From: Fibrobacterota bacterium
GTDB lineage: Bacteria; Fibrobacterota; Fibrobacteria; UBA11236
Reading direction: 5' to 3'
NCBI GenBank assembly: GCA_019509785.1
Contig: JAEKLQ010000034.1
Location: forward strand, 1-64,000
DNA length: 64,000 nt
Each line of letters begins with the position of its first letter. The stretch's first letter is position 1. The position numbers and the translations under genes are program-made. Below are positions 23,068 to 39,603 of this stretch, in pieces. The notes under the pieces are model-generated. The model did not search any database and had not been told where the DNA came from. It saw only the letters and a list, made by a program, of their open reading frames with translations.

Positions 23068-23097
23068 TTGACTTCGCGAAAACCGCGGTGATAAAAT
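23068..23097 (+). promoter_or_regulatory. Promoter giving a near-leaderless mRNA
   Basis: TTGACT (23068-23073), an 18-bp spacer and TAAAAT (23092-23097), preceded by TG at 23089-23090 (extended -10). The ATG of the PKD lipoprotein is only 9 bp after the -10, leaving almost no 5' leader, and no Shine-Dalgarno sequence is present. Confidence 0.65.
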
Positions 23098-23106
23098 GGC
23101 GTCATC

Positions 23107-24723
23107 ATGCCCGCATCCTTTTCGGCGCCGCGCCGGAATGCATTGCTTTGGATCGCTTGCGCGGCGCTGGGAACGGTCTCCTGCGGCAAGCGCGATGAAG
23201 CCGCCCGCGGCCCATCGACCGTAAGCCATCCAGCGGTTTCCCTTCCCGCGGCCGGCGCCCCGGATACGCTGGCGGATTCCTCCGCGCTGAATGCGTCGGC
23301 TCCCGAACCGACAGCCGCGAAACCCGATGCCGGACTGACCTTCCTCTCGCATCCTCCCAAAGCCTACCTGGGCAAGGCCTTCGTCTATAAACCTTCCCTG
23401 GATTTCCCCGGCGCCTTTTCCTTAAGGCTCGCCAAGCCGGCCGATTCGACCATGAAGCTGGATCGAGGCCGTATCCTATGGACGCCCACGCATAGCGGTC
23501 GTTTTCCCGTTTTGATCGAAGCCTTCCTTTCCGATCGCTCCGGCCAGGCCGAGGGTAAGAAAACCCAACAGGGATTCATCTTGGATGTGGCGCCGGTCGT
23601 GAGCCTGGTATTACGGCCGTTACCCCCCAAGGCCCACAAGGGCGACTCGGTCGAATTCGATTTGAGGCAAAGCCGTTGGCCCGCCTGGGCGGCCGCTTCC
23701 ATCAGCGTCCGGTTCGATTGGGAAGGCGATGGCGTATGGGATACCGAAGCCCTGCCTTTGGCGGCGCAAACGCTAAGGCGGCACGCTTATGCCGCGCCGG
23801 GTCGGTTCGCGCCCAAGGTGGAGGCCCGCTACGGAAGCTACGAGGTCCAGCAGGCCGGCGGTGCAATCTCCATCGTGGGCAAGGTGACGGCATCCGTGAA
23901 GATTTCCCCGGATACGGTAGAGCCTGGAGCCGAATTCCTGGTAGACGCATCTTCTTCCCGGTCCGAAAGTCGCTTAGCGTATTCCCTCGATCTCGATGGG
24001 GACGGGAAACCGGAATGGATCGATTCCGCGTCCGGAAAGGCCACGCTTAAGGCTCCGGCATCCGGCATGTACCATGCCCAACTCACGGTCCGCGATGCTA
24101 TGGGGGAAACGGACAAGGCCGAAACCGTCTTGTGCGTCAACGCCCGGCCCAAAATCGAATTCCGGGTGCGCAATCCCAGGGACAACATGTCGGCTACCAT
24201 CGACTTCAAGATCCGCGCCAAGGACCCGGACGATTCCCTACGTTCGGTGCGCTTCAGTTACTCAGGCGGAGATAAGGATTGGGAGACGCGGGCCGCGCCC
24301 GACAGCCAGACTGGCGGGCATGAATGGTATCTGCGCCTTAAGCACGCGTATGGGAAGGTAGGGAAGTATGCCCCCAAGGCATGCGTGACTTCGGGCGATG
24401 GCCGTGAAGCCTGCCAAGAACTCCAGGTCGAAATCTTCAACGCCCCTCCCGAATGCCGCCCCGGCGGTGATCTGCATGCTACCCTAGGCCAGCCCATCGC
24501 CATCGATGGAACGGGCGTAGATCCCCACGGGAAGATCGTGAAATGGGAATGGGATTTGGACGGGGACGGCGAGTACGATCTGGTCTCCACCGAAAACGGG
24601 AAGTTCCAGTACACCTTCAGCAAGGAAGGCACCTTCAAGCTCGTGCTGCGCGTAACCAGCGCCGATGGCATGACCGCCATCGGGAGCCGCAAAGTGGAAG
24701 TGCGGAAAAAGTGGAAGACCTGA
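23107..24723 (+). CDS. PKD-domain lipoprotein, first gene of surface cluster
   Basis: The 538-residue product has a lipoprotein signal ending in LGTVSC, an Ala/Pro-rich linker and then PKD/Ig-like beta domains with the typical polycystin-type text: FDWEGDGVWDTE, SLDLDGDGKPEW and WEWDLDGDGEYDLVS. PKD domains in bacteria usually mediate surface or carbohydrate contacts. The ATG at 23107 is needed for the signal peptide and lies just after a good promoter. The FecR-domain gene begins 5 bp after the stop, so this gene probably leads the operon to 36572. Confidence 0.75.
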   Translation: MPASFSAPRRNALLWIACAALGTVSCGKRDEAARGPSTVSHPAVSLPAAGAPDTLADSSALNASAPEPTAAKPDAGLTFLSHPPKAYLGKAFVYKPSLDFPGAFSLRLAKPADSTMKLDRGRILWTPTHSGRFPVLIEAFLSDRSGQAEGKKTQQGFILDVAPVVSLVLRPLPPKAHKGDSVEFDLRQSRWPAWAAASISVRFDWEGDGVWDTEALPLAAQTLRRHAYAAPGRFAPKVEARYGSYEVQQAGGAISIVGKVTASVKISPDTVEPGAEFLVDASSSRSESRLAYSLDLDGDGKPEWIDSASGKATLKAPASGMYHAQLTVRDAMGETDKAETVLCVNARPKIEFRVRNPRDNMSATIDFKIRAKDPDDSLRSVRFSYSGGDKDWETRAAPDSQTGGHEWYLRLKHAYGKVGKYAPKACVTSGDGREACQELQVEIFNAPPECRPGGDLHATLGQPIAIDGTGVDPHGKIVKWEWDLDGDGEYDLVSTENGKFQYTFSKEGTFKLVLRVTSADGMTAIGSRKVEVRKKWKT

Positions 24724-24728
24724 ACGCC

Positions 24729-25616
24729 GTGAAAGCCCTGCGCGGGTTCGCCCTTGCGCTTAGCGCGGCTTTATGCCTGGCTTCTCAGGCCCGTGCCGAT
24801 CGCCTCGTTCTCAAGGACGGCCAAACGATTTTCGGAAGGGTGATCGACGAGAGCGATTCCGTCGTCCGGTATTTCGATCGCTACGATCGGCCCCGCAAGC
24901 TCCCGGCCGCCGATATCGATACCCTCGAGTACGACTCCCGCGATGTCCAGGGTTTGGTCAAGGTGGCCTTCCGCAAGGGCCAGACCCGGGATCGCACCGG
25001 CCATTTCCGCATCCGGCATTCCGAGGAATTGGATTTGGATGTGGAGTACAAGACCGATTCCACCGCCGAGCTGGACCTTTTCTTCCGGAACGAAGTCCAC
25101 GTGCGCGTCCTGCCCAACACACGTTTCAAGGTGGCCAAAGCCCCCAAAGGCCCGTCCGATCCGCTCCTCTTCGAACTCAAAGCGGGCCGCATCCTGGCCA
25201 CGTCCCCGCGGCCCGAAGCCTTGGTCCGCGTCATCACCCCGTGGGGCATCGGGGTAGGCCGCGGGCAATTCCAGGCCGGCGTGGTCGGCTCTCCCGCCGA
25301 TTCCTCCATGCAGATCCTTTGCCTGCGCGGGCTGACCGGCGCGCAGGAGTCGGCGCAAAGCCCGGGCGAATTGGTGGTGGAGGAAGGCAAATCGGTAAGG
25401 CTCGTGCGCAAGGAAAGCCTCTTCGATCGGCGCGCGCCCGATGCGGAGGAAGATCGGTTTTTCCGGGAACTGGCCGCCAACATGGGCCATTACCGTTTCG
25501 CACAAGTGCAATATCCGGGCATCGGTTACTTGCCCAAGGCCCTGACGGGCTTAGGCTTTATGGTGTTCTTCTACGGCACGGCCATCGGGATCCTGGACTA
25601 TGTCAATCATATCTAG
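24729..25616 (+). CDS. Exported FecR-domain protein with C-terminal membrane helix
   Basis: The likely start is GTG 24729, giving 295 residues with a signal peptide (ALRGFALALSAALCLASQARA). The centre is FecR-like: ELDLFFRNEVHVRVLPNTRF, LLFELKAGRILATS and VRVITPWGIGVGRGQFQAG. A hydrophobic helix ends the protein (GLGFMVFFYGTAIGILDYV). In iron uptake, FecR is an inner-membrane sigma regulator. Here the domain is in an exported protein with no FecI nearby, so a structural or sensing role is more likely. It overlaps the next gene by 17 nt. Confidence 0.7.
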   Translation: MKALRGFALALSAALCLASQARADRLVLKDGQTIFGRVIDESDSVVRYFDRYDRPRKLPAADIDTLEYDSRDVQGLVKVAFRKGQTRDRTGHFRIRHSEELDLDVEYKTDSTAELDLFFRNEVHVRVLPNTRFKVAKAPKGPSDPLLFELKAGRILATSPRPEALVRVITPWGIGVGRGQFQAGVVGSPADSSMQILCLRGLTGAQESAQSPGELVVEEGKSVRLVRKESLFDRRAPDAEEDRFFRELAANMGHYRFAQVQYPGIGYLPKALTGLGFMVFFYGTAIGILDYVNHI

Positions 25617-27156
25617 GACCTCCTTGGCCGCCCGGGCCGTGATGTACGCGTTGATGGCAATGCTTGCCACAGCCCTTCCCGCCCTGGCCCAATTTACGGA
25701 CTTCCAAGGCGGCAATCTGAGCCTGAAGGTGGAAGGGAACATGTCGCCTTTCGCCTTGGCCAGCAACACCGGCGCGCGCGGCGCCATGAGCAACGTCACC
25801 TCCTTGTACCCATCGGCGGCATCCTTGTTCGGCAATCCCGCCGCCCTGGCGAGCCTGCAAACCATGGACGTGCAATCCGATTTCTTCTTGCCCGGCCTGG
25901 GGTTGGGAGTCAGCAGCGAACGCACCAAAATCCTGCGCAACGATCTGCGCGCGCCCATCCAGGATTTCCTGTCGGGCGGCGACAACCACGTGGCCCATCC
26001 CAGCTTTCCGGACGTGAACCTGGGGTTGTACCAGTCCACCAACCTGGGCGGGTTCGCGGTCGCCTTCGGGGGCCCTTCCGCGACCTTGGCTGCCGGATAC
26101 CAGCAGCCATTCAGCGGCCTGATCGATTTCGGGTTGGGCGGTTTCCGCCTAGGACTCGGGATTCCCGAGGACGCATCCGATCCGCAATCGGATAGCATCA
26201 AGGTGCTGCTCTCGGTGGACGCCTTCGCCCGCTTCAAGGCGGAGTTGAACGATTTCTCCCTCGGGATTGCGGGGGAACCTTGGAAGAACCTTCGCTTGGG
26301 GTTGGCATATCAGCGCTACACCCTCGACCTGGGGCTGGATGCGGGCGCCCGGGTGGACGGCATCCTCCAGCGGGCGGGGCAGGAATCCTATTTCCACTCG
26401 CAGGACGTGAATTACCAGAACGATTTGGACGCCAAGGGCGAGGGCGCCATCACCGGCTCAGCGCACGGCGTGCGTCTGGGGGCGGCGTGGCAGCCGTTCC
26501 GGCATTTCGGCGCCGATGCCATGCTCAGCCTGGCCGAAACCATGCATTTGGATGGATCCCTCGCATGGCAATACCACATGCTGCCCGCCCTGGATTTCAG
26601 CAGCGATAAGATCCTCGATCCGGCGAAGATGAATCCCACAAAATTGACCCTGACCACCCGCACCAAAGAGGTGCTGCAGGATATGCAAGTGAACATGCCC
26701 TGGGAGGCCGCCCTCTCCTTGCATGCCAATTGGTCCGCCGTGCGCGTGAACCTCGACTACTCGTATTTCCTGCGGGGAATGTCGGTACGCTATGAACTGC
26801 TGGACAGCGTGGATGCCTTCGACAAGGAAACCAAGGATCGATACAAGGATCACGAAGGTAACGATTCCGTGGAGGTGACCCGGGCTTCCAAGATCTTCCG
26901 CCTGGGCCTGGAGCAGCAATTCGCATTGGGCATCCAGGTTTACCAAGTCTTCCTGCAAGTGGGAGGGATCGTGTACAGCGTAACGCAAGGGGACATCTTG
27001 TCCGAATCGGCGGCCTACCGCCCGGCCTCGTTCCCGTTCCTCCCCACCTTGAACCTAGGGTATTACTTCCCGTTGGGGCCGAAATTCACGACCACGGTAT
27101 CCTTGGTCGCCTTCCCCGTTGCGCTGTTCAAAACCAGCGTGGAGTACCGGTACTGA
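25600..27156 (+). CDS. Putative outer-membrane beta-barrel protein
   Basis: The 518-residue product has a signal peptide (AVMYALMAMLATALPALAQ). The body resembles FCB outer-membrane barrels: an early YPSAASLFGNPAALASLQ, comparable to the SAFYNPAG-type segment of FadL/PorV proteins, and a last aromatic strand ending TSVEYRY. It overlaps the FecR-domain gene by 17 nt and lies 1 bp before the giant-repeat gene, so the genes are almost certainly cotranscribed. It may be the outer-membrane channel or anchor of the cluster; this is inferred from position. Confidence 0.65.
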   Translation: MSIISRTSLAARAVMYALMAMLATALPALAQFTDFQGGNLSLKVEGNMSPFALASNTGARGAMSNVTSLYPSAASLFGNPAALASLQTMDVQSDFFLPGLGLGVSSERTKILRNDLRAPIQDFLSGGDNHVAHPSFPDVNLGLYQSTNLGGFAVAFGGPSATLAAGYQQPFSGLIDFGLGGFRLGLGIPEDASDPQSDSIKVLLSVDAFARFKAELNDFSLGIAGEPWKNLRLGLAYQRYTLDLGLDAGARVDGILQRAGQESYFHSQDVNYQNDLDAKGEGAITGSAHGVRLGAAWQPFRHFGADAMLSLAETMHLDGSLAWQYHMLPALDFSSDKILDPAKMNPTKLTLTTRTKEVLQDMQVNMPWEAALSLHANWSAVRVNLDYSYFLRGMSVRYELLDSVDAFDKETKDRYKDHEGNDSVEVTRASKIFRLGLEQQFALGIQVYQVFLQVGGIVYSVTQGDILSESAAYRPASFPFLPTLNLGYYFPLGPKFTTTVSLVAFPVALFKTSVEYRY

Positions 27157-27157
27157 A

Positions 27158-28705
27158 ATGAGATTCCGCCCGGCTTTCCGTTTTCTCCCGGCGTTCATCG
27201 GCTTGTTCGCCTTGATCCAGGCCCATGCCGGCATCACGCTCACCCAGGTTCCCGTGGGCATGCGTAAGCAGACCGCAGAGATCACCTTGGGATGGACGGG
27301 AGGCGCGGGCCGCGTGCATCTACGGGCGTCCCTGGTGCCCGGCGGGACCGGAGCGTCCATTTCGCATTACGATTCCCTGCATCTGCCCAGCCTGACCGAT
27401 GCGGGAACCTATACCTTCAAGGTCAATCCCGATATCCCGGTGGCCTACCGCAATACCGATCTGCGTTTCGGCATCAACTACTGCATCCTCACCGACGGGA
27501 AAACGGCTTCGCCCGAATTCATCATCATCCTGGAATCGTCGAACGCGCCGGTGCTGACCGCTCCGGCCAACGCGGCTTCCATCAAGGATCCGGCCCCGAC
27601 GTTCGCATGGACCGGGGATGCGCCCTTCTACGCCCTGTTGGTTTCGGACGAACCGTTCAAGATCGGCGACGATGGGACGGTTTCCGGAGTAAGCGCCATC
27701 TGGCAAATCATCACCCCCTATACCTCGGCCCGTTATGGCGATGCCGATCCCTCGGGATACAACACCGTCCCGGCCCCGCCGCTGATCTCGGGCAAAACCT
27801 ACAACTGGCTGGTGCTGAACAATTACGGGAATAACAGCGCTTCCACATCGAAGGTCGCGCCCGCGCCGGTCTCATTCACCTATCTGCCGGCGGCTCCCTT
27901 GCCGTCGGCGACGCTCATCGAACCCCGGGACAAGGATACCCTTCCGGGTCCCGACCAAATCGTATTCCGCTGGGGCCTGGTGGATGGCGCGGTCAACTAC
28001 AAGCTCGAGCTCCTGGAGGAAGACCTGGTGGACGGGAGCCAGGCGGATATTTCGCTATGGAAAGCGACCTCTACGGGCGGGCAAATCGCGCTGGACAATG
28101 CCAGCGCCTTGCTGCGCCGGTACAATTACAAGTGGCGCGTGTACGCCACGGGGAACGACGGTTCGGCTTCTCTCTCGGAGAAACGCAGTTTCTTTTACGC
28201 CGTGGACGTGGGGGATATCAACGTTTTCGTGAAGGACCCCGCGGGCCGCAAGGTCGCCTATGCGCCCGTAAAGGTCAACCGCCTGGGCGGCTCTTCTTCC
28301 GCCGTCTACCAGAGCGGATCGACCGATGCCGATGGTTCCTTGGGGATCAAGAACGCACCCCTCGGGACCTATGAAATCCGCATCGAGAACGCCGATGGAT
28401 ACCAGCCTAAGATCGATACCCTGGTGCATGCGTCCAAGACGGGTTCTACCGACAACATCGTCCTCATCCCCGCGCTGGGCCGCATCCTGGGAAAGGTTTC
28501 CTCCGCGGCCACCGGCACCGGAATCCTCAATGCGCAGATCACGGCAACGGGAAGCGATGGATCGCAATGGACCGAGGTCACCAATTCCCAGGGAAACTAT
28601 TCCCTCGGGTTGCCCCGATCTCCGCGGCCCTCTCATCTTCGAGCCCGTCGCGCACGACCGACTTCGCCCTGGCCGCCAATCCGTACACCTTGTCCGGCGC
28701 CGTAA
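27158..28705 (+). CDS. Giant regulatory-like-repeat surface protein, 5' part before frameshift
   Basis: The ATG at 27158 opens a frame with a signal peptide (FRFLPAFIGLFALIQAHAG). Fibronectin-III/Ig-like segments follow (residues about 120-350, with APANAASIKDPAPTFAWTG and EPRDKDTLPGPDQIVFRWG). Then come the first carboxypeptidase-regulatory-like repeats from about residue 355. Near 28605 the repeat sequence breaks off after GNYSLGL and the frame runs to a stop at 28705 as Arg/Pro-rich shadow. The repeat array resumes in the -1 frame. The whole gene, 27158-35568, is 8,411 bases, one short of a multiple of three, and would encode about 2,803 residues. Confidence 0.7.
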   Translation: MRFRPAFRFLPAFIGLFALIQAHAGITLTQVPVGMRKQTAEITLGWTGGAGRVHLRASLVPGGTGASISHYDSLHLPSLTDAGTYTFKVNPDIPVAYRNTDLRFGINYCILTDGKTASPEFIIILESSNAPVLTAPANAASIKDPAPTFAWTGDAPFYALLVSDEPFKIGDDGTVSGVSAIWQIITPYTSARYGDADPSGYNTVPAPPLISGKTYNWLVLNNYGNNSASTSKVAPAPVSFTYLPAAPLPSATLIEPRDKDTLPGPDQIVFRWGLVDGAVNYKLELLEEDLVDGSQADISLWKATSTGGQIALDNASALLRRYNYKWRVYATGNDGSASLSEKRSFFYAVDVGDINVFVKDPAGRKVAYAPVKVNRLGGSSSAVYQSGSTDADGSLGIKNAPLGTYEIRIENADGYQPKIDTLVHASKTGSTDNIVLIPALGRILGKVSSAATGTGILNAQITATGSDGSQWTEVTNSQGNYSLGLPRSPRPSHLRARRARPTSPWPPIRTPCPAP

Positions 28706-31700
28706 GGAATTCCTTCACCCGCCAAGGTATCTTCGGCGCTACGGTGCAACTGGTCCAAGGCGGGCAGACGCGCACGGCCAATACCGACGGCAACGGGGCC
28801 TTCTCCTTCTCCGTACCCGGGGGCGCGGCCTCCGTCCGCGCCTATTGCGCCGGTTTCGCGGCGCCGGAACCCGTCTCCCTCAGCGTGGACGGGGACAAGA
28901 CCTTGGCCTTCGCCTTGGATCCGAATGCCTCCATCCTATCGGGCCGGACCCGGGATCTTTCCGGCACCGGCATCCCCGGCGCCATGGTCATAGCCACGCC
29001 CAAAGCGGGCACGGTGCGGACCGCGCTCAGCGACAATCAGGGATACTTCGAGCTTAGCCTCCCGGCGGGGGACTGGATCCTGGCGGGCTCCGCGAAGGGT
29101 TACGCCTCGCAAACCACGCGCAATTTCCTTCTCGACGTCTCCAAGACCGTGCAAGGCGTGGATTTCAGCTTCGCGCCGAACGGCTCTCTCATCAACGGGA
29201 GAGTAACCATAAATGGTGGTGGACTGGCGGGGGCATTGGTGGTTTCCGGGCAAGCTTCCGCCGCTACGGATAACTCCGGCTACTACCGCCTTTCCGTAAA
29301 CACGGGAACCCAATCCGTTTCGGCCGCGAAGGAAGGCTACCTGATTCCGAAAATCTGGACCCTGCCCATCAATCCCGGGGATTCGGTGGCCAACATCGAC
29401 TTCGCGGCATCGGGCAATGCCGGCACCGTGAAAGGCCACGTGCTATCGGGCGGGGCCGGAGTGGCGGGGGCGACGGTAAAGGCGGCGAACAAGGCCACCC
29501 GGGAAACCTTCTCCCAGGTTAGCGACGGGACCGGAGCCTATGCGCTTTCCCTGCCGGGGGCCGATTACGAATTATCCGCCGCCAAAGATGGCTTCGCCTT
29601 GGACGCCCTGCTCGTTTTCAGCTTACCGGCGGGCGGTACCATCCTGGATCAGAATCTTAAGCTCGTGGCGAATCAGGGCATCGTATCTGGGACCGTCGCT
29701 AGCGGTAGTGCGGTGTTGTCCAATTGCGAAGTCGCCTATCGCGGCGCGACGGATGCGTCTTCGGCGGGGAAAACCCTGACCGATCCGCAAGGCCGGTATT
29801 CGCTTTCCTTGCCGGCCGGGGCGGCTTACCTCCTCACTACGACTTGTACGGGATATCAGCAAGGGACCGCGACGGTCGCCGCCTTGACCCGCGGCTCGGC
29901 GGCGACGCAGGACTTCAATGTGCCGGCGGCCGGAGCCACCTTTAAGGGCAAGGTCGTGGACGGGGCGGGGAAGGCCTTATCCGCCGCCAAGGCAACGGCC
30001 GCGAAAGATGGCGCATCCGTCTCGACGGCTTCCGATTTCAACGGCGCCTACGCATTCGGGCTGGGAGCGGGCGCGTATGGGCTCACGGTTTCCAAGGCGG
30101 GTTATCGTACCGTGAACCGCTCCTTAAGCCTGTCATTAGGCGACAATTCGGGAGCGGCCGATACGTTGCGGCCCTCGGTGGGCCGCCTGGCGGGCAGGGT
30201 GACCTCGGACGGGGCTCCCGTAGCGGGGGCGTTACTGAGCCTGGCGGGTTTCTCGGCCGATGCGGGCGGAGGCCTGTTCGCCACCGACGCGGACGGCCAT
30301 TATTCCGGGGACAACCTGGCCGCGGGATCCTATTCCCTTTCCGTTTCCGCCGACGGCTATGCGGACGCCAAGCTCGCCTCGCTCACGATTTCCGATGGGC
30401 AACTGACGAACGCCGATCTTGTCCTTACGGCCAACCGTTCCGCCTTGGAAGGCACGGTTCAGGCCGATGGAGTTGCGGCGGCGAATGCCGTCGTGGCGGC
30501 CACCGCCTACGGGGTGGCCCGCTCTGCGGTCAGCGGTCCCGATGGCAAGTACCGCATCGATAAGTTGCCGGCGGGCACCTACTCCTTATCGGCCACCCTA
30601 GCCGGCTACGCGGCGGATAAAACCTACGATGGCAAAGGATTGACGGCCGGCGCTACGCTCTCGGGTCTGGACTTCGCCTTGAGCCGCAACGTCGGAAGCC
30701 TTGCTGGAACGGTTTCCGGGGCCGCGAATTCCTCCGGCATCCAGGTAACGGCGGTAGGCGTCAAGAAGGGCGCGCGCAGCTATGCGGTTTGCGATGCGGC
30801 CGGGAAATATTCCATCCCATCCCTGCCCGCCGATGACTACACCCTGACCGTGGCCGCGCCCGGATACAAGATCGCCTCGGGAACCCAGTCCCCCGTGGCC
30901 ACCGTCGCAGGCGCATTGCGGTTCGACATCGCCTTGGCCCCTGCCGTCTTCAGGTTGGCGGGCGTCCTGGTCGATCAGGCCAATACCGGCATCGGCGGGA
31001 TGCCCATGGAATTGCGCGCCGGATCCTCCACGGTCCGGATCACCACCCAATCGGACGGGTCCTACGCATTCGCCGACGTTCCCGCGGGCCAGGAATACCA
31101 ATTGTCCTGCAAACCCCCAACGGCCGGATTCGATCCCAAGGACACCGCTTTCTCCTTAAGCCTCGATGCCCCGGCCACCGTCATAGCCAACCTCAGCACC
31201 TTGTCGCGCCAAGCTAGTCTCTCCGGTTCGGTCAGCTTGGACGGCGTCGCCGCGGAAGGCGCGCTCATCCGGGTCAATGGCAGCGGCAACGCTCTTACGT
31301 CGCTTTCCCAGCCGGGGGGATTCTTCAAGGTATCCGGCATCGCCGGATCTGCGCAGCCTTTATCCGTATCCGTTTCCAAATCGGGGGCCGGCGGATTCGA
31401 TACCTCCTTGATCGTGAACGTAGGGGGAAGCGTTGCCGGACTTGCCATTAAGCTGAAGACCCTGAAGTTGTCCTTGGCTGCGATCTTGTCGAGTTCAGAA
31501 GGCAAGCCGTTGGCAGGCGCGAAGGTAGTGGCGGCTTCCGCCAAACGCCTGGATACCTTGGTCACGGGAACGGACGGCAAGATCACCGTGAAAGACATTC
31601 CCGCCAACCAGGCGCTGACCTTGGCCACAGCCCTGGACAAGGATCTCTACGATAATTTGGAAGCATCCGTGTTCCTGAAAGAAGCGGATACCAGCATAGC

Positions 31701-34700
31701 CTTGCAAGCCAAGGTGCATGCCGCCAGCGTAACCGTGAGCGTGAAGGATCGGGCCGGCGATCCTGTGGACGGCGCCGACGTGCAAATGAACGGGCAGGCG
31801 CTGGGGAAGACTACCCAAGGCCGCCTCGTCGCCGCGAAGTTGGCGCGAGGCAGCTACGTATTCATCGCGGGCAAATCCGGGTACAAGAGCGGGCCCGCCC
31901 AATCCCTGTCCCTTCCGGGCGACACTTCGGCATCCGTTGATCTGATTTTGACCAAGGTGACCGGCGGCGTCTACGGTACCGTCCGCGATACCGGATTGGA
32001 TCAGGCGGGACCCGGAGGACTTGCCGTGGCCACCGCGCGCTCCCTGCCAGGCGCCATCGTAATCATGGTCGCGGGAACGGATACCCTGCGCGATACCGTG
32101 AACGACCTGGGGCAATATTCGTTGGACGGCCTGACGGAGGGCCGCCAATACCAGATCAATCTGGCCTTGCCCGGATACCGTCCGCTACTCGATTCCATCG
32201 TCGGCAACGTCCAACCCCAAGCTCGCGACCTCATCCTTCGCCCCTTTCCGGGGTCGGTCCTGGGACGCGTGTTGGGCGGAAAGTCCGGGGTTAAGATGGT
32301 GCTTTCGCATCGGGCCGGAGGCGGGACGGAGACGTTCCTCGCGCGTTACGGGGGGTACTACGCCTTCACGGGCCTGCAAAACCGCAATGATTACGTGGTC
32401 CAGGCCTTGGATGGAACGAACGGTTCGCCCGCAGTGGCTTTCCAGGCCGATGGGGCCTTGGCCAAGCGTTTCGATCCGGTCCTCGATGCTTGGGGCTCGG
32501 TCCAAGGCGCGGTCACTGGCTTTTCCGGGAACGCGGTCGCGGGCGCCCTGCTCTCGGCCCGCAATACCGTAACGGGGGCCCTTACCCTGGCGACCTCCGA
32601 TGCGGCGGGCAAGTACGTCCTGGCCGGCCTGGGAACCGGCGCATATGAACTCACTGCGGACCGGACGGGTTACCGTAGCCCTAAGGCCTCTACCGCGAAC
32701 GTTACCAAAGGCGCCCAGGCGTCCGCCGATTTCCGGTTGGAAGAAACGGTGGATGGGATCGGCGGCCTGGTGGCGGATGCGGCCGGGCGGGGAGTGGCGG
32801 CGACGGTCATACTGGTCGCGGGCAAGGATACATCGAAGCAAGAAACCGACGGCAGCGGGCAATTCGCCTTCGGGGGACTCGTCGCAGGCAGCTATAGCTT
32901 GACGGCACGCAAGGACGGCTACGCGTCTCCGGCGCCGGTTACCATCGCTTATGGCGGCAAGGGCCTGGAGAGCCGTGCCTTGGCCTTGCAGCGGCAAGAT
33001 CACCTTATCAATGGCCTGGTTCGGGATGCCTTGACCAACACTCCCTTGGCGGGAGCGCAAATCGGTGTCGCAGGAGGCGCATCCGCGATTTCCGATTCCC
33101 TCGGCCATTACCAGGTCGCGTCGCCCTCCGGAGTCCCACTGGTTTCCCTGGCGGCATCCCTGGACGGGTATCTGCCCCGGAGCGGATTGCCGGTTTATGT
33201 CGACTCCAACGGCTCCGCAACACAGGATATCGTTCTCTCGGCGGACTACCGTTTCGACGGTCGTATCAACGTGACCGTGAAGGAGGGCAAGGATCCGGTG
33301 CCGGGACTCCTCATCTCCCTGCAATCCTTCCATCCCGACGATTCCCTGGCCTTCTCGATCTCCGCGGCGGTCGCCAGTTCTTTCCGTGATCTGCGTCGCC
33401 CCGTTCCCTATACCCTCAAGGTGAAACGCGATGGCTACAAGGACTTGGTTAAGGGCGTCGAGCTCACCGCGAAGTCGCCGACCTTGGACGTAACCCTCGC
33501 GTATCCCACCAGCCGAATCCGCGTCTTCATGACCGGCGACGGGAAGCACGGCAAGAGCGTGGAGCTGTCCCTTAACGGCCAAAGCCTTCCCGAGCATCCG
33601 GATACCGCGGGACTTTACCTCAGCGGCGCCAAACTTAAACCTGATCGCTACGAAGTGGCCGTCCGGGATCGGGAAACCGATCTGATTCCCCTCGCGCCTT
33701 ATTTCATCGGCCTGGGGGAAGATAGCGTGCGCACCGATACCTTGTCCCAGCCCTTTTTCGCCGTCGCCATCCCCGACTCCACCATCGACTCGCCGTTCCT
33801 GGCCCGCGTGCGCCGGGTGGATTCCCTGCGACCCGCTCCCGCCGTGACCTGCAGCCTCTACTATCGTTCCCAAGGCGAGCCTCTCTGGAAGTCCCTGGCG
33901 ATGGATTCGACGGCCGGCGGCTTCGCGGATACCGTTCCGGCCCAAAGCCGGGCAGGCGTTTACGAATACTACTTCGCCCTGCGATCCCCCTCGGGCGCCC
34001 GCGTGGGCGTGCTTTCCGGCGGGAACGCTTCGGTGGCGGGTCTTCCCACGTCCTATTCCGGCGTCCAATCCCCTAAAACCTTCTCCTTGCGCGATCCGTA
34101 CTTATTGCAGTCGTTCGCCCTCTTGCCCCAACGTCTGGAAGCGGACACCTCCGTGTATTCGCTGGATGCGCGCGATCTTTTCCAGGCGCAAATGCGCGGC
34201 GAGAAAGGCGTAAGCCTCGACGCTTATTTCGATCGCAAGGCCGCTGCGGGCGAATCCGATTACACCGTTTCCTGGTCGTTCTCGGAACCCGACCGCGCCA
34301 AGGCCGCCGGCCTCGTGCTCGATCCGGTTTCCGGCAATCCCAGGATGATCCGCTTCTCCGGCGGCCACAAGCCTTCGGACTCGGTATACCGGATCGAAAG
34401 CGCAGTGAGGATGGGGGATGTCCGGCTCAAGAAGTCCTTCTACGTAAAAATCCAAGACCTGACCCCGGCCTCCGTCGGCATCCGCTACGTGAAAGAAAAC
34501 CGGGTCTTGGAAGAGAATGGCGCCACTCTCCCGCTGGATAATCGGAACGCTGCAGGCTATGCCTTCGCCGCCTTCGCCAAGACCGCGGATGGCCGCATCT
34601 TCAACATCCTTCCGCGCTGGTCCCTCGGGGAGGATTCGGCCGCGGGGCGGATCACCCAGCAAGGGGTGTTCTTCCCGGATTCCGCCGTGGCGCGCAGCGC

Positions 34701-35568
34701 CGTCATGAGCATCTTCGATACGCTCCGTGTCGGGGCCACCCGCACCGGGGAGGCCTTGTACGCGGCTTTCCAGGCGGACGCCGACTTGATGACCTTGGCC
34801 CAGGTGGCGCCGGCATCCAAAGGGAGCACCGTGGTCACCAACGGCGAAGGCGCCGTCCTCGAATTCAACCTGGCGGGGCTGAGCAAGGCTTTCACGGTCA
34901 GCGTTACCAAGCCCAAGGTGAGCGGCCTCTTGCGCTCTTCCCCCAAGGAAGAAGTCGTGGGCCAGATCCTCGACATCGATCTGAGCGAACGCCAGCCGTT
35001 CAAGGCCGATAGCGGGGCGGTGCTGAAGTTGCCCGTCGCCAATGGCATCGCCCGCCGCCGCACCACCTATCTGGGCCATTGGAACTCCGGGCTATTGGCT
35101 TGGGAAAAGGTCGACAGCGCATCGGCCGGCGCGGATGTTTCCGGCAAGGTCTATAGCTTTTCCAAATACGCGGTCCTAATGGGCAGTCTGCCGCTTGGCG
35201 CCTACGATATCACCTTGGCCCCCAATCCTTTCTCGGCGGACGATCCCTGGGGCCTGCAATTGGGCTACAAGGTTTCCTCCGACGTCTCCAGCCAAGTGGG
35301 CGTGCGGGTAGAGGTTTATAACATGATGGGCGACAAGGTGTACGAAAGCGAGGAAACCCAATTAGGCAAAGGGGACTTGGTGACGCCCGGAACCAAAAAG
35401 GCCGCGCCCAAATCGCCCGAGCGACGCGCGGCCCTGGGGCCTTTCGTCTGGGACGGCCGCGATACCCGGGGCGATCCCTGCCGTAACGGCCGCTATCTGT
35501 TCAAGCTAATCGTGAAGGATGGCAAGGGCAGCAAGGAATACCTGCGGAAAGTGGTGATGCTCAAATGA
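28567..35568 (+). CDS. Giant regulatory-like-repeat surface protein, 3' part after frameshift
   Basis: This is the continuation of the gene at 27158; the genuine frame begins near 28609-28665, and the ATG at 28567 lies in shadow sequence. It carries about 19 further repeats of roughly 70-100 residues (G-x-V ... G-x-x-L-x-G-A-x-V ... D-x-x-G-x-Y ... L-x-A-G-x-Y-x-L ... GY), the CarboxypepD_reg/CnaB-like pattern. About 700 mixed residues follow. The C-terminal domain (ITLAPNPFSADDPW ... VEVYNMMGDKVYES ... FVWDGRDTRGDPCRNGRYLF) is FlgD-like and resembles type-9 sorting domains. It overlaps the PorV-like gene by 4 nt. The likely role is a long fibre or adhesin on the surface. Confidence 0.72.
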   Translation: MDRGHQFPGKLFPRVAPISAALSSSSPSRTTDFALAANPYTLSGAVRNSFTRQGIFGATVQLVQGGQTRTANTDGNGAFSFSVPGGAASVRAYCAGFAAPEPVSLSVDGDKTLAFALDPNASILSGRTRDLSGTGIPGAMVIATPKAGTVRTALSDNQGYFELSLPAGDWILAGSAKGYASQTTRNFLLDVSKTVQGVDFSFAPNGSLINGRVTINGGGLAGALVVSGQASAATDNSGYYRLSVNTGTQSVSAAKEGYLIPKIWTLPINPGDSVANIDFAASGNAGTVKGHVLSGGAGVAGATVKAANKATRETFSQVSDGTGAYALSLPGADYELSAAKDGFALDALLVFSLPAGGTILDQNLKLVANQGIVSGTVASGSAVLSNCEVAYRGATDASSAGKTLTDPQGRYSLSLPAGAAYLLTTTCTGYQQGTATVAALTRGSAATQDFNVPAAGATFKGKVVDGAGKALSAAKATAAKDGASVSTASDFNGAYAFGLGAGAYGLTVSKAGYRTVNRSLSLSLGDNSGAADTLRPSVGRLAGRVTSDGAPVAGALLSLAGFSADAGGGLFATDADGHYSGDNLAAGSYSLSVSADGYADAKLASLTISDGQLTNADLVLTANRSALEGTVQADGVAAANAVVAATAYGVARSAVSGPDGKYRIDKLPAGTYSLSATLAGYAADKTYDGKGLTAGATLSGLDFALSRNVGSLAGTVSGAANSSGIQVTAVGVKKGARSYAVCDAAGKYSIPSLPADDYTLTVAAPGYKIASGTQSPVATVAGALRFDIALAPAVFRLAGVLVDQANTGIGGMPMELRAGSSTVRITTQSDGSYAFADVPAGQEYQLSCKPPTAGFDPKDTAFSLSLDAPATVIANLSTLSRQASLSGSVSLDGVAAEGALIRVNGSGNALTSLSQPGGFFKVSGIAGSAQPLSVSVSKSGAGGFDTSLIVNVGGSVAGLAIKLKTLKLSLAAILSSSEGKPLAGAKVVAASAKRLDTLVTGTDGKITVKDIPANQALTLATALDKDLYDNLEASVFLKEADTSIALQAKVHAASVTVSVKDRAGDPVDGADVQMNGQALGKTTQGRLVAAKLARGSYVFIAGKSGYKSGPAQSLSLPGDTSASVDLILTKVTGGVYGTVRDTGLDQAGPGGLAVATARSLPGAIVIMVAGTDTLRDTVNDLGQYSLDGLTEGRQYQINLALPGYRPLLDSIVGNVQPQARDLILRPFPGSVLGRVLGGKSGVKMVLSHRAGGGTETFLARYGGYYAFTGLQNRNDYVVQALDGTNGSPAVAFQADGALAKRFDPVLDAWGSVQGAVTGFSGNAVAGALLSARNTVTGALTLATSDAAGKYVLAGLGTGAYELTADRTGYRSPKASTANVTKGAQASADFRLEETVDGIGGLVADAAGRGVAATVILVAGKDTSKQETDGSGQFAFGGLVAGSYSLTARKDGYASPAPVTIAYGGKGLESRALALQRQDHLINGLVRDALTNTPLAGAQIGVAGGASAISDSLGHYQVASPSGVPLVSLAASLDGYLPRSGLPVYVDSNGSATQDIVLSADYRFDGRINVTVKEGKDPVPGLLISLQSFHPDDSLAFSISAAVASSFRDLRRPVPYTLKVKRDGYKDLVKGVELTAKSPTLDVTLAYPTSRIRVFMTGDGKHGKSVELSLNGQSLPEHPDTAGLYLSGAKLKPDRYEVAVRDRETDLIPLAPYFIGLGEDSVRTDTLSQPFFAVAIPDSTIDSPFLARVRRVDSLRPAPAVTCSLYYRSQGEPLWKSLAMDSTAGGFADTVPAQSRAGVYEYYFALRSPSGARVGVLSGGNASVAGLPTSYSGVQSPKTFSLRDPYLLQSFALLPQRLEADTSVYSLDARDLFQAQMRGEKGVSLDAYFDRKAAAGESDYTVSWSFSEPDRAKAAGLVLDPVSGNPRMIRFSGGHKPSDSVYRIESAVRMGDVRLKKSFYVKIQDLTPASVGIRYVKENRVLEENGATLPLDNRNAAGYAFAAFAKTADGRIFNILPRWSLGEDSAAGRITQQGVFFPDSAVARSAVMSIFDTLRVGATRTGEALYAAFQADADLMTLAQVAPASKGSTVVTNGEGAVLEFNLAGLSKAFTVSVTKPKVSGLLRSSPKEEVVGQILDIDLSERQPFKADSGAVLKLPVANGIARRRTTYLGHWNSGLLAWEKVDSASAGADVSGKVYSFSKYAVLMGSLPLGAYDITLAPNPFSADDPWGLQLGYKVSSDVSSQVGVRVEVYNMMGDKVYESEETQLGKGDLVTPGTKKAAPKSPERRAALGPFVWDGRDTRGDPCRNGRYLFKLIVKDGKGSKEYLRKVVMLK

Positions 35569-36572
35569 ACCGCTCCCGCGCCATCGCATGGGCCTGCTTA
35601 TTCGCGGCCGCCGGTACCCACACCGATGCCGAATCCCTGGCCGGCGCGCCCGGTGCCTTCGCGCCCATCCCGATGGGAGGCCGCGGTACGGCGCTGGCCG
35701 GGGCGCAAACGGCCGCTCCCGATAACGTGGAAGCGATCCTTTATAACCCGGCGGCCATGGCGGCCACGAAGGACTGGTCGGGCGGATACTACTACAGCGA
35801 TATGTATGGGCTCGTTCCCTACCATTTCACTTCCGGCACCTACCATATCCCGGGCCGCCCCTTCGTAGCCGGCGTCGCCTGGCTGCAAAACGGGGACGAG
35901 GTCTACTCCGAGAACGAGGTGCTTCTGGGCGGATCCTATGAGCGCGGTTGGGTGCAGCTGGGAGCCACCTATAAGCTCCGCTTCGCGGGCACGGGGGTAG
36001 GGGGGACCGAATTCCGCGATCCGGAAACCAACCTGGGCCATCAAGTGCAGGCCAGCGCCCTGGGCCTGTTGGGCTTCGACGTGGGCGCCACGGTGCGGCC
36101 CTTCGGGTCCAAATACGCCATGGGAGTGGTCCTCAAGGATCTCGCCTCCCGTATCGCCTGGGATACCCGTAACGAAGCGGGTACCGCGCGCGGGCAATAC
36201 GCCGAGTACGTCCCGGTGAGCCTACGCTATGGGTTCCTTTTCGATCCGGATCCGTTCCTCGATTTCGCGGTGGATTATGAGCCAGCCTTGTACCATGACG
36301 GTTTGTCGCGCCTAGCCACCGGCGCGGAATTCGTGCCCCTGGAACTGCTACCGGATTCTTGGGCCAAGCCTTACGTGCATGATGCGTTGGCGGCGCGCGT
36401 CGGATATGCGCGCAACATGTTCACCGCCGAGGCTTCCCATCGCTTGACCGCCGGGGCGGGGGTATCGGTACGCTACCTGGGCATACGCTTGTCGGTGGAT
36501 GCGGCTTATGAGTGGGTGTTCAATTTCGATGGGAACAATAACCTGAGGCTCGGGTTTAACGTGAGCCGTTAG
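35565..36572 (+). CDS. PorV/FadL-like outer-membrane protein
   Basis: The 335-residue product has a signal peptide and the N-terminal PorV/UPF0164 pattern: PIPMGGRGTALAGAQTAAPDNVEAILYNPAAMA. It ends with amphipathic strands (YEWVFNFDGNNNLRLGFNVSR). PorV-type proteins assist type 9 export and surface anchoring in Bacteroidota. Its ATGA overlap with the giant protein suggests a partnership in display of that protein, which is an inference. It closes the cluster begun at 23107. Confidence 0.75.
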   Translation: MNRSRAIAWACLFAAAGTHTDAESLAGAPGAFAPIPMGGRGTALAGAQTAAPDNVEAILYNPAAMAATKDWSGGYYYSDMYGLVPYHFTSGTYHIPGRPFVAGVAWLQNGDEVYSENEVLLGGSYERGWVQLGATYKLRFAGTGVGGTEFRDPETNLGHQVQASALGLLGFDVGATVRPFGSKYAMGVVLKDLASRIAWDTRNEAGTARGQYAEYVPVSLRYGFLFDPDPFLDFAVDYEPALYHDGLSRLATGAEFVPLELLPDSWAKPYVHDALAARVGYARNMFTAEASHRLTAGAGVSVRYLGIRLSVDAAYEWVFNFDGNNNLRLGFNVSR

Positions 36573-37157: not shown

Positions 37158-38291
37158 TCAAATCCCCATCCGGATCCCAAACATATAATGGCGATCCTCG
37201 AGCTGCCCAACATATAAGCCTGCCTCGTCCGCCCATGAAGTGAATTCCAATTGCAGGATGAACAGGTTGGCCGTAAGACCGTAACAAGGATAGCCGCCCT
37301 TGAAGCCGCCGCGGATCTGCGCCAGGCTCATGTTCATCTCGGCCCCGAAATCCACTTTTTGCAGGAAGTCTTTTTTCGCGAAGGCATCTTCGATATCCAA
37401 GTCGAAATTCACGTAGCGAAGCAGGCCCTGGTTGCGCAATACCGCCGGCAGGTAAGCCAGGCCGAAGCTGTAGGTGATCGGGACGGGATCGTTGTCGATG
37501 TTCAGGAACACGTTGTAGACGACCGCTCCCACGCGCAGCTCGGTGGGGACGATGTCGTACAACGCGCCGGCGGTCAGGCCGAAGCCGAATCCGGGCTTGT
37601 AAATCCTCTCCTTCTCGGCGTCCAACATGTTCTGCAAGGTGTCGCCGGCAGTGGCGTAGTTCTGGATCGAAATGGATTGCTCGAAGATATGGTAGGTGGC
37701 AACGGTCGGGGATAGGCCGATGCTGAGGCCGGGCAAGGGTTGGATGGCTCCCGCGACCTTGGCGACGAAATCGGTGCGGATGCGGGCGGTGGCGGCGGGG
37801 ATGTAGATCCCCTTGTCCAGCATGAAGCGGCCTTGCGAGCCCAGGAACCAGGCCGCGCCGATGCCCAAGGGCAAATCGGGATCGGTGCTGCGGGCCGCGA
37901 AGTGCATTTCCGGGGCGGTGCCCAAGGTAATGGGCCGCCGGTCGAAGATCATGATGTCGTCCACCAGGGTATTGTCCGCGGCCATGCTGTCGACGCTCGC
38001 GAAGCTCCCGGAATGCGCCCCGGCCACGTTGAGCGCGTCCCCGGCCACCCCGAACAAATCGCCCACGTCGAATTTCAGGGCGATGCCCGCGTCCAAAGGC
38101 GTGTTCAAGCGCGCCAGACCGGCGGGGTTATAGTAGATGCCGCTATAATCGTCGGACAAGCCCACGAAGGCGCCGCCCATCCCCAGGGCCCTCCCGCTCA
38201 GGTAAACCGGCCCCCGCACGGCCCAGGCGGCGGTTGCGGAAAGGGTAGCCAAAGTGGCGATGAGGAGGGATTGGCCGAACGGGCGCTTCAT
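37158..38291 (-). CDS. PorV/FadL-like outer-membrane protein
   Basis: The 377-residue product has a signal peptide (KRPFGQSLLIATLATLSATAAWA) followed by the typical GRALGMGGAFVGLSDDYSGI and YYNPAGLARL of the OmpP1/FadL/PorV-like family. The rest is barrel-like strands. It begins 1 bp after the stop of the upstream calcium-motif lipoprotein, so the two are cotranscribed from the promoter before 39603. Its partner and position suggest a lipoprotein-barrel pair on the outer membrane. Confidence 0.75.
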   Translation of the reverse strand: MKRPFGQSLLIATLATLSATAAWAVRGPVYLSGRALGMGGAFVGLSDDYSGIYYNPAGLARLNTPLDAGIALKFDVGDLFGVAGDALNVAGAHSGSFASVDSMAADNTLVDDIMIFDRRPITLGTAPEMHFAARSTDPDLPLGIGAAWFLGSQGRFMLDKGIYIPAATARIRTDFVAKVAGAIQPLPGLSIGLSPTVATYHIFEQSISIQNYATAGDTLQNMLDAEKERIYKPGFGFGLTAGALYDIVPTELRVGAVVYNVFLNIDNDPVPITYSFGLAYLPAVLRNQGLLRYVNFDLDIEDAFAKKDFLQKVDFGAEMNMSLAQIRGGFKGGYPCYGLTANLFILQLEFTSWADEAGLYVGQLEDRHYMFGIRMGI

Positions 38292-38292
38292 C

Positions 38293-39603
38293 TCATTTCC
38301 CCTTCTTGAAGCCTTTCACCGCCCCCTTGCATAAATCGAAGGTCGTCACGGTGTCTTTCACGGGCGGCGATACGCTGGAATCCATCACCACCACGGTGCG
38401 GCGCGTATCCACCAGGCCGGTATCCGAGGGGGCCCAATAAATCTGGCCCTTACGCTCGGGGTGGGTGAACAGGCGGGCGGGAGCGAAGGATTCCTCGTAG
38501 CGGGAAGTGAACAGGCTTTCGTCGGGATCAGCCGCGTCGATCTTGCCGTCCCCGTCGTTATCCGCCAAATCCTTTTCGGCATGGTAGAAGACGTTCCCGG
38601 CCGTGTCCGGCGCGCCGCGGGAATCCTCGTCCACGCGGCCGTCGCCATCGTTGTCGATGCCGTCCAACAGCTCCTCGTCGACGCAGCCGTCCCCGTCGTT
38701 ATCGACCTTGTCGAAGACCTTGTAGATGACCACGGTGGCCCCGGCATCCTGGATGAATTTCTTCACCTGGCCGATGGCCGAATCGCCCACCTGGTCGGCT
38801 GCCCCGGGGAGCGCGGACTTCACCTTCGCGCAATTGCTGTCGGCCGTGTCGCATTTGACGCCGCCCACGAGGCTGTCCTTCTTGTCGAGGACGCCATTGA
38901 GGAACAGGTCTATGGCCTTATCGCTCTTGGCCAGCAGATCGCTGGACTTGTCCAAGAGGTTGTTCAGGGCGCCTATCTTGGCCGTATCATTCTTGAGATC
39001 GGCGATGTGGGCCATGATACTGTCGGGATTGAGCTTGGTGGGATCCGTGAAGTCGATGATGCCGCTCAGGATATTGTCCTTGGAGTTGATGCGCCCGTCC
39101 CCGTTGAAATCGGCGATGGAAAGCACGGCTTCGATGGCGGAGGCCAGGGCATAGTCGGCGGAGAAGCGCCGGGCCGGGATGATGCCGTCGCTGAGCCCGC
39201 GCGCGTCTCGATTAGCGAGCAGGCCCAGGTAGGCGTTGATGCCGCGGTTGGCCACGTAGATCTTGTCCTTGATGGAATCCGGCTCGCCCAGGAAGGGTAT
39301 GGTCTTGCCGTCGTTGTTTTGGAACGACTCCAGCAGTTGGAACATATTGATGCGCTGTTCCAGGAGGCGGGCTTTGGCGGCGCCATAATAGGCCTCCGAT
39401 TTGGACGAATCCTTCGCCAGCGCCGCGTTGAACTCGTCCAGGGCCTGGGCGTATTCCGCCTTTTGCAGGAACAGCTGGCCTTCGAAGATGTGTTGGTCGG
39501 CGGTGTCGGCGGAGGTGCCCACGGCTTCTTTGAAGATGTTGCATCCGGAAGCGGCCAAGGCCAATACGGCCAGCGCGGCGCGGGCCGCAAGGAATCGAAG
39601 CAT
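38293..39603 (-). CDS. TPR and calcium-motif lipoprotein
   Basis: The 436-residue product has a lipoprotein signal ending LALAASGC. Residues 40-80 form TPR-like helices (GQLFLQKAEYAQALDEFNAA). An EF-hand-like DFNGDGRINSKD is near residue 170, and thrombospondin-3-type calcium repeats occur near 300-350 (DKVDNDGDGCVDEE, DGIDNDGDGRVDED, DNDGDGKIDAAD). The ATG is only 6 bp after a -10 box. Function is unknown; a periplasmic scaffold role with the barrel downstream is plausible. Confidence 0.72.
   Translation of the reverse strand: MLRFLAARAALAVLALAASGCNIFKEAVGTSADTADQHIFEGQLFLQKAEYAQALDEFNAALAKDSSKSEAYYGAAKARLLEQRINMFQLLESFQNNDGKTIPFLGEPDSIKDKIYVANRGINAYLGLLANRDARGLSDGIIPARRFSADYALASAIEAVLSIADFNGDGRINSKDNILSGIIDFTDPTKLNPDSIMAHIADLKNDTAKIGALNNLLDKSSDLLAKSDKAIDLFLNGVLDKKDSLVGGVKCDTADSNCAKVKSALPGAADQVGDSAIGQVKKFIQDAGATVVIYKVFDKVDNDGDGCVDEELLDGIDNDGDGRVDEDSRGAPDTAGNVFYHAEKDLADNDGDGKIDAADPDESLFTSRYEESFAPARLFTHPERKGQIYWAPSDTGLVDTRRTVVVMDSSVSPPVKDTVTTFDLCKGAVKGFKKGK

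Follow-up and report, generated by a model that had tools for sequence, protein, structure and literature searches.

The window, which is the whole stretch of 64,000 nucleotides that was analysed, comes from a soil member of the Fibrobacterota whose genome comprises 5.4 Mb in 106 contigs, is 96% complete and belongs to a genus that also includes the MAG Chersky_265 (G001/L103). The locus comprises five genes on the + strand, separated in order by a 5 nt gap, a 17 nt overlap, a 1 nt gap and a 4 nt overlap; these frame coordinates agree with the original prediction, in which five genes share a strand and no gap or overlap exceeds 17 nt. All five genes are under purifying selection (dN/dS 0.12-0.23). 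The features identified are the following:

23068..23097, + strand: sigma70-like promoter, TTGACT-18-TAAAAT, the -10 preceded by TG, ending about 10 nt ahead of the ATG of gene 1
23107..24723, + strand: gene 1, PKD-domain lipoprotein, 538 aa, putative genus-level accessory
24729..25616, + strand: gene 2, exported FecR-like protein, 295 aa, GTG start, signal peptide, putative accessory
25600..27156, + strand: gene 3, FadL/TodX-like outer-membrane barrel, 518 aa, core gene
27158..35568, + strand: gene 4, giant repeat protein, core gene, frame broken near 28613
27158..28615, + strand: gene 4 N-terminal region, with signal peptide, Ig/FN3-like domains and first repeats; frame stop at 28703-28705
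28613..28645, + strand: site of the 52-nt deletion/frameshift relative to four congeners
28567..35568, + strand: gene 4 second open frame, with 19 of the 21 CarboxypepD_reg-like repeats and the C-terminal domain
35194..35568, + strand: gene 4 C-terminal domain (CTD), FlgD_ig/T9SS-type, with a final Lys
35565..36572, + strand: gene 5, PorV/PorQ-family barrel, 335 aa, core gene, overlapping gene 4 by 4 nt

Downstream of the cluster, at 37158-39603 on the - strand, a convergent PorV-like barrel gene and a gene for a TPR/EF-hand-like protein were identified, and both follow the cluster in 4 of the 4 congeners that carry it. The barrel gene (37158-38291) is 81-83% identical in the congeners. The two are possibly linked in function to the five genes.

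The promoter belongs to a block of about 33 nt, GATTGACTTCGC(A/G)AAAA.CG..GTG.TA(A/G)AATG, which is kept in five species while its flanks diverge; when up to 3 mismatches were allowed, no second match was found in the own genome. This conserved promoter-like element before gene 1 supports, but does not show, a single transcript for the cluster. Its nearness to the ATG of gene 1 suggests that the message is leaderless or nearly so. A scan of 800 bp around the end of gene 5 did not reveal a terminator.

The first gene had been read as a PKD lipoprotein, and this was confirmed by PKD domains recovered at 73 bits in a profile search and by a lipobox Cys that is invariant in five species. The second had been read as an exported FecR-domain protein. 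Gene 2 carries a signal peptide of its own and ends in a hydrophobic stretch that is invariant among its orthologues; its FecR domain, however, is degenerate and below threshold (17.3 bits, with a Pfam curated cut-off of 24). A FecR search of the own genome at E 1e-3 did not recover the gene, and all five orthologues match the FecR model (best 3.7e-5). No relatives of gene 2 were found outside the genus in a phylum-level search, though the trio formed by genes 3 to 5 is present there, and neither FecR nor PKD relatives were identified among some upstream genes scanned in other phyla. Genes 1 and 2 lie outside the conserved core as genus-level additions, contrary to the earlier inclusion of the FecR and PKD proteins in the unit, and within this genus they may act as accessory factors of the periplasm or the outer membrane. 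A non-sigma role for the FecR-like protein would fit its signal peptide and the lack of an ECF sigma gene among the flanking genes scanned.

Gene 3, described earlier as a barrel, is FadL-like both by profile and by predicted fold. The profile match to TodX is 3.3e-5, and the predicted structure (pLDDT 79.7) finds CymD with a Foldseek E of 2.7e-6 and a probability of 1.00; the Toluene_X score is 13.2, against a cut-off of 29.7. The PorV_fam model was matched by 9 of the 33 gene 3 homologues. The likeness to the FadL/TodX channels is one of fold and profile, whereas identity is 11-12%, the fold overlap is partial (TM about 0.42/0.54, rmsd 10.6) and gene 3 is always found beside the giant. When gene 3 itself was searched across the phylum, a single relative was identified outside the genus (G010).

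Gene 4 had been presented as a protein of about 2,800 residues. This size is correct for four congeners, in which the giant is intact (2,826-2,835 codons), but not for the window, where the frames 27158-28705 and 28567-35568 meet at about 28613 and 52 nt are absent near that point relative to the same congeners. The rest of the giant is free of decay (dN/dS 0.18 over 2,306 codons, and 0.12 in the N-terminal part), which leaves an assembly error or a very recent loss as the origin of the lesion. The window protein and its congeners start with a hydrophobic N-terminus and a small-residue cleavage region, recognized by inspection as a signal peptide. The head is a chain of Ig/FN3-like domains (predicted fold, pLDDT 80.3) common to all homologues, and a fold search with the N-terminal region returned generic Ig/FN3 chains only. 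The body is formed by CarboxypepD_reg-like repeats. A model trained on the giant gene itself counts 2+19 of them in the window and 21 in L057, a congener with the intact gene, which matches the anticipated number of about 21 carboxypeptidase-regulatory-like repeats.

The last 124 residues of the giant, aligned in 23 homologues, share the pattern PNPFSP...IYN..G..V...WDG...NGRY...D......VL.K, in which the final Lys is invariant. The FlgD/type-9-like character assigned earlier to this end is upheld by the profiles: the CTD matches the PorU model in 22 of the 23 homologues (best 3.6e-12), the window copy matching its C-terminal part, and it matches TIGR04183 (best 5.4e-6) and FlgD_ig in 22 of 23 each. 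A profile of the CTD searched against the PDB finds FlgD and the C-terminus of PorU (6za2). The window copy is below the curated cut-offs (TIGR04183 13.4 against 23 bits, CHU_C 21.2 against 27, FlgD_ig 21.9 against 27). Judged by these profiles, the end of the giant appears closest to the CTD of the sortase PorU.

The PorV-like nature of the last gene was also recovered. Gene 5 is a PorV/PorQ-family barrel with 59.7 bits to model NF033709, whose cut-off is 90, and PorV_fam is matched by gene 5 and its 20 homologues without exception (21/21, best 4e-28). The NPA motif near the N-terminus of the FadL-type barrel is invariant in the 21 sequences. The PorP/SprF model TIGR03519 was matched by one of the 21 family members (E 0.0073), which is not the window protein, and an assignment of gene 5 to PorP/SprF was rejected. 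A PDB sequence search with gene 5 gave kinase matches that were judged to be chance. The PorV-family model has 17 matches in the own genome.

Within the genus, the order of the five genes is identical in 4 of 5 congeners, with protein identities of 53-77% for most genes. The flanks, xseA upstream and the 37158-38291 barrel downstream, are equally conserved, so synteny within the genus was rejected as sufficient evidence of a unit. The MAG Chersky_265 (90% complete) is the sole congener lacking this long-form cluster, and it contains a trio of a shorter form. In the phylum, the N-terminal region of the giant has relatives in 49 of 168 genomes, mostly in proteins of about 1,500 aa, and, in the neighbourhoods that were read, these short-form giants again have an upstream barrel and a downstream PorV-like gene. 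Outside the class Fibrobacteria, nearly every genome of the phylum presented one short-form copy. Relatives of the giant are absent in most Fibrobacter genomes sampled. The 4-nt overlap between the giant and the PorV-like gene was identified in 4 of 4 long-form congeners, in G010 and in some short-form loci.

Beyond the phylum, a pattern-based scan of 84,980 species genomes gave 71 loci, which include Latescibacterota, Marinimicrobia, Cloacimonadota, KSB1, Calditrichota, Krumholzibacteriota, Eisenbacteria, Goldbacteria and FCPU426. The core trio of FadL-like barrel, repeat giant and PorV-family barrel is thereby found in about ten phyla, Fibrobacterota and Raymondbacteria among them. The barrel is upstream of the giant in 63 of the 64 loci with upstream sequence available and the PorV-like gene is downstream in 51 of 56, in some after a second large gene, both counts being obtained with models trained partly on the same loci. 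Models built from the genus or from Fibrobacterota alone find most of the partners outside the phylum (the barrel to 1e-27, the PorV-like gene to about 1e-65). Among the five exceptions lacking a downstream PorV-like gene are two-gene split giants, cut contigs and disrupted frames. None of the 71 loci belongs to Bacteroidota, an absence that is weak evidence in a pattern-based scan. The gene order, on whose conservation in relatives the original prediction had rested its proposal, is thus kept across phyla and in paralogous copies. The conserved unit is formed by genes 3 to 5, and it is ancient and widespread. In the open-licence literature searched, no description of the trio was found, nor any work linking PorV, CarboxypepD_reg and type IX secretion.

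In KSB1-type loci (L066, L069, L070, L074) two consecutive genes, of about 1,400 and 2,240 residues, take the place of the single giant and are followed by the PorV-like gene. Two loci, one under the label Candidatus Methylomirabilis and the other under Goldbacteria (L106, L107), are almost identical (branches about 0.1), which probably reflects a mislabelled or mixed bin.

A diverged paralogous trio is present in the own genome on contig C52 (L042:4042-11772) and comprises a barrel, a giant of 1,474 aa and a PorV-like protein. Trees were built for the head of the giant, for the barrel and for the PorV-like gene. They set the long-form copies (window, L057-L061) apart from short-form copies of the same genomes, in separate and well-supported groups. 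These topologies point to two separately inherited trio units per genome. Genome relatedness cannot account for a linkage of the three genes that was kept through an old duplication.

The PorV-like protein of the C52 trio has a long N-terminal extension. In the short-form partners (L047:14527-16095, L052:5239-6819 and others) the extension has some 200 residues and is reminiscent of CsgG/TolB N-terminal domains, with no family significant.

The type 9 context of the genome is given by SprA (G000:C35, 88 bits, above cut-off), found also in 89 of 89 good genomes of the phylum, and by a PorU-like sortase (G000:C84, a frame of 1435 aa, 390 bits with a cut-off of 420). The PorM/GldM motor model TIGR03517 had no match in 13 genomes, nor in any control, which makes this negative uninformative. 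Since the SprA translocon and a PorU-like sortase are present, the PorV-like barrel is better read as a carrier or anchor, and it is unlikely that the barrels are the export pore of the giant. The display system originally proposed is in this way retained as a dedicated unit of giant and barrels, through its order across phyla and its two paralogous copies, and would lose the option that the barrels export the giant.

With a probability of about 0.58, the trio is a cognate cargo-carrier unit of type 9 secretion, in which the giant is exported via SprA and held by its own PorV-family barrel. The giant would consist of a signal peptide, an Ig/FN3-like head, a rod of 21 TTR-like repeats and a PorU-like CTD. 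It would be exported to the periplasm by Sec and then taken across the outer membrane by SprA, where the gene 5 barrel would collect its CTD at the translocon. The same barrel would hold the giant at the outer membrane, probably uncleaved, as in PorV-PorU and SprF-SprB. The upstream FadL-like barrel would be a further obligatory partner in the outer membrane, at which the conserved N-terminal head perhaps docks. We infer in this scheme the surface location of the giant, its export through SprA, the binding of its CTD to gene 5 and the role of the upstream barrel.

The cargo-carrier reading is drawn from the logic that the trio shares with characterized pairs. The genes for type B cargo of F. 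johnsoniae, SprB for example, stand beside those for their own SprF-like carriers, which also serve as anchors (PMC12618676, PMC9143113). Like these type B CTD-PorP/SprF pairs, the trio has a very large repeat protein with a T9SS-type CTD, directly upstream of a carrier/anchor barrel. It differs from them in that the CTD is FlgD/PorU/type-A-like, the barrel is of the PorV family (1/21 to the PorP/SprF model), a second barrel stands upstream and the trio occurs outside Bacteroidota. In P. gingivalis, the PorV/PorQ barrels hold PorU and PorZ, and PorZ retains its CTD (PMC8545088). The trio resembles PorU-PorV and PorZ-PorQ in joining a CTD-bearing surface protein to a PorV/PorQ-family barrel, PorU being the closest CTD, but the giant lacks a protease or propeller domain and has a body of 21 TTR-like repeats. 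To our knowledge, the known PorU-PorV and PorZ-PorQ pairs have no second barrel in front. Type A cargo uses a shared shuttle, PorV (PMC10994853, PMC5562754), whose loops grip the CTD inside SprA (PMC10994853). The giant is like type A cargo in its signal peptide, its Ig-like CTD and the SprA translocon in its genome, and differs from it in the private PorV-family gene with a 4-nt overlap and in a window CTD below the TIGR04183 cut-off.

Several points count against the cargo-carrier reading. The scores of gene 5 (59.7 against 90 bits) and of the window CTD (13.4 against 23) are below curated cut-offs, and this assembly has a broken frame for the giant. The PorM/GldM motor also went without a match, in the uninformative search given above. 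For a carrier of this family to be private is unusual, as the Bacteroidota studied share one PorV for type A cargo (PMC12618676). The short form, near-universal in the phylum outside Fibrobacteria, resembles a core envelope part rather than a variable adhesin.

The last point leads to the main rival, that of a core envelope scaffold, which we consider a good deal less probable. The giant would here be a structural part of the outer membrane or periplasm (a spacer, an S-layer-like coat or an assembly scaffold) held by the two barrels, and would serve envelope integrity and not display or adhesion. Besides the single short-form copy of nearly every genome of the phylum outside Fibrobacteria, it is favoured by the head domain and gene order kept across phyla, by the strong purifying selection and by the repeats, which on their own match weakly an anammox S-layer glycoprotein model. 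The CTD, however, belongs to a type that directs proteins to SprA for export, the partner is of the PorV family, and the absence from most sampled Fibrobacter genomes indicates that the giant is not essential there.

An uptake system is unlikely; here the pair of FadL-superfamily barrels would take in hydrophobic or polymer-derived molecules, and the giant would serve as an arm that catches the ligand. The resemblance of gene 3 to TodX, CymD and FadL channels in profile and fold agrees with it, but that fold match is partial and PorV, itself a FadL-superfamily barrel, imports nothing in its role in secretion. The flanking genes scanned did not include a catabolic gene set, and the domain scan found no carbohydrate-binding or enzyme domain in the giant.

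Far less probable still is a surface signalling module, with gene 2 as its anti-sigma-like regulator and with either the giant or one of the barrels as its sensor. Gene 2 shares with the FecR anti-sigma regulators a FecR-type domain, degenerate here and matched weakly in all five orthologues, and has a weak match to a Leptospira anti-sigma model. It differs from those regulators in being exported, with no sigma factor in the scanned flanks and no cytoplasmic anti-sigma domain in the profile scan, and the search across the phylum did not recover it outside the genus, where the trio does occur.

That the five genes are mere neighbours, as the equally conserved xseA and 37158-38291 barrel within the genus might suggest, is hardly credible and is contradicted for genes 3 to 5 by a trio that persists across phyla with differing flanks and twice in one genome, genes 1 and 2 being linked to it only within the genus.

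A broader proposal can be advanced tentatively beyond the cargo-carrier reading. The trio might represent an unnamed envelope system of many phyla, with a giant repeat rod held by two barrels, the FadL-like one at the head and the private PorV-family one at the tail. Such a type-A-like pairing is not found in the Bacteroidota models, and the carriers of type 9 secretion would have diversified in a cargo-specific manner.

The cargo-specific carriers documented so far join type B domains and SprF-like barrels; for type A cargo, the accepted view is that of a single common PorV. A PorU/type-A-like cargo always paired with its own PorV-family gene would, if true, extend the carrier logic, and private carriers would suggest why these genomes hold many PorV paralogues, as with the 17 matches identified here. 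The trio occurs in phyla where type 9 secretion is almost unstudied, and it would then provide a marker and a testable system for the envelope architecture of uncultured lineages.
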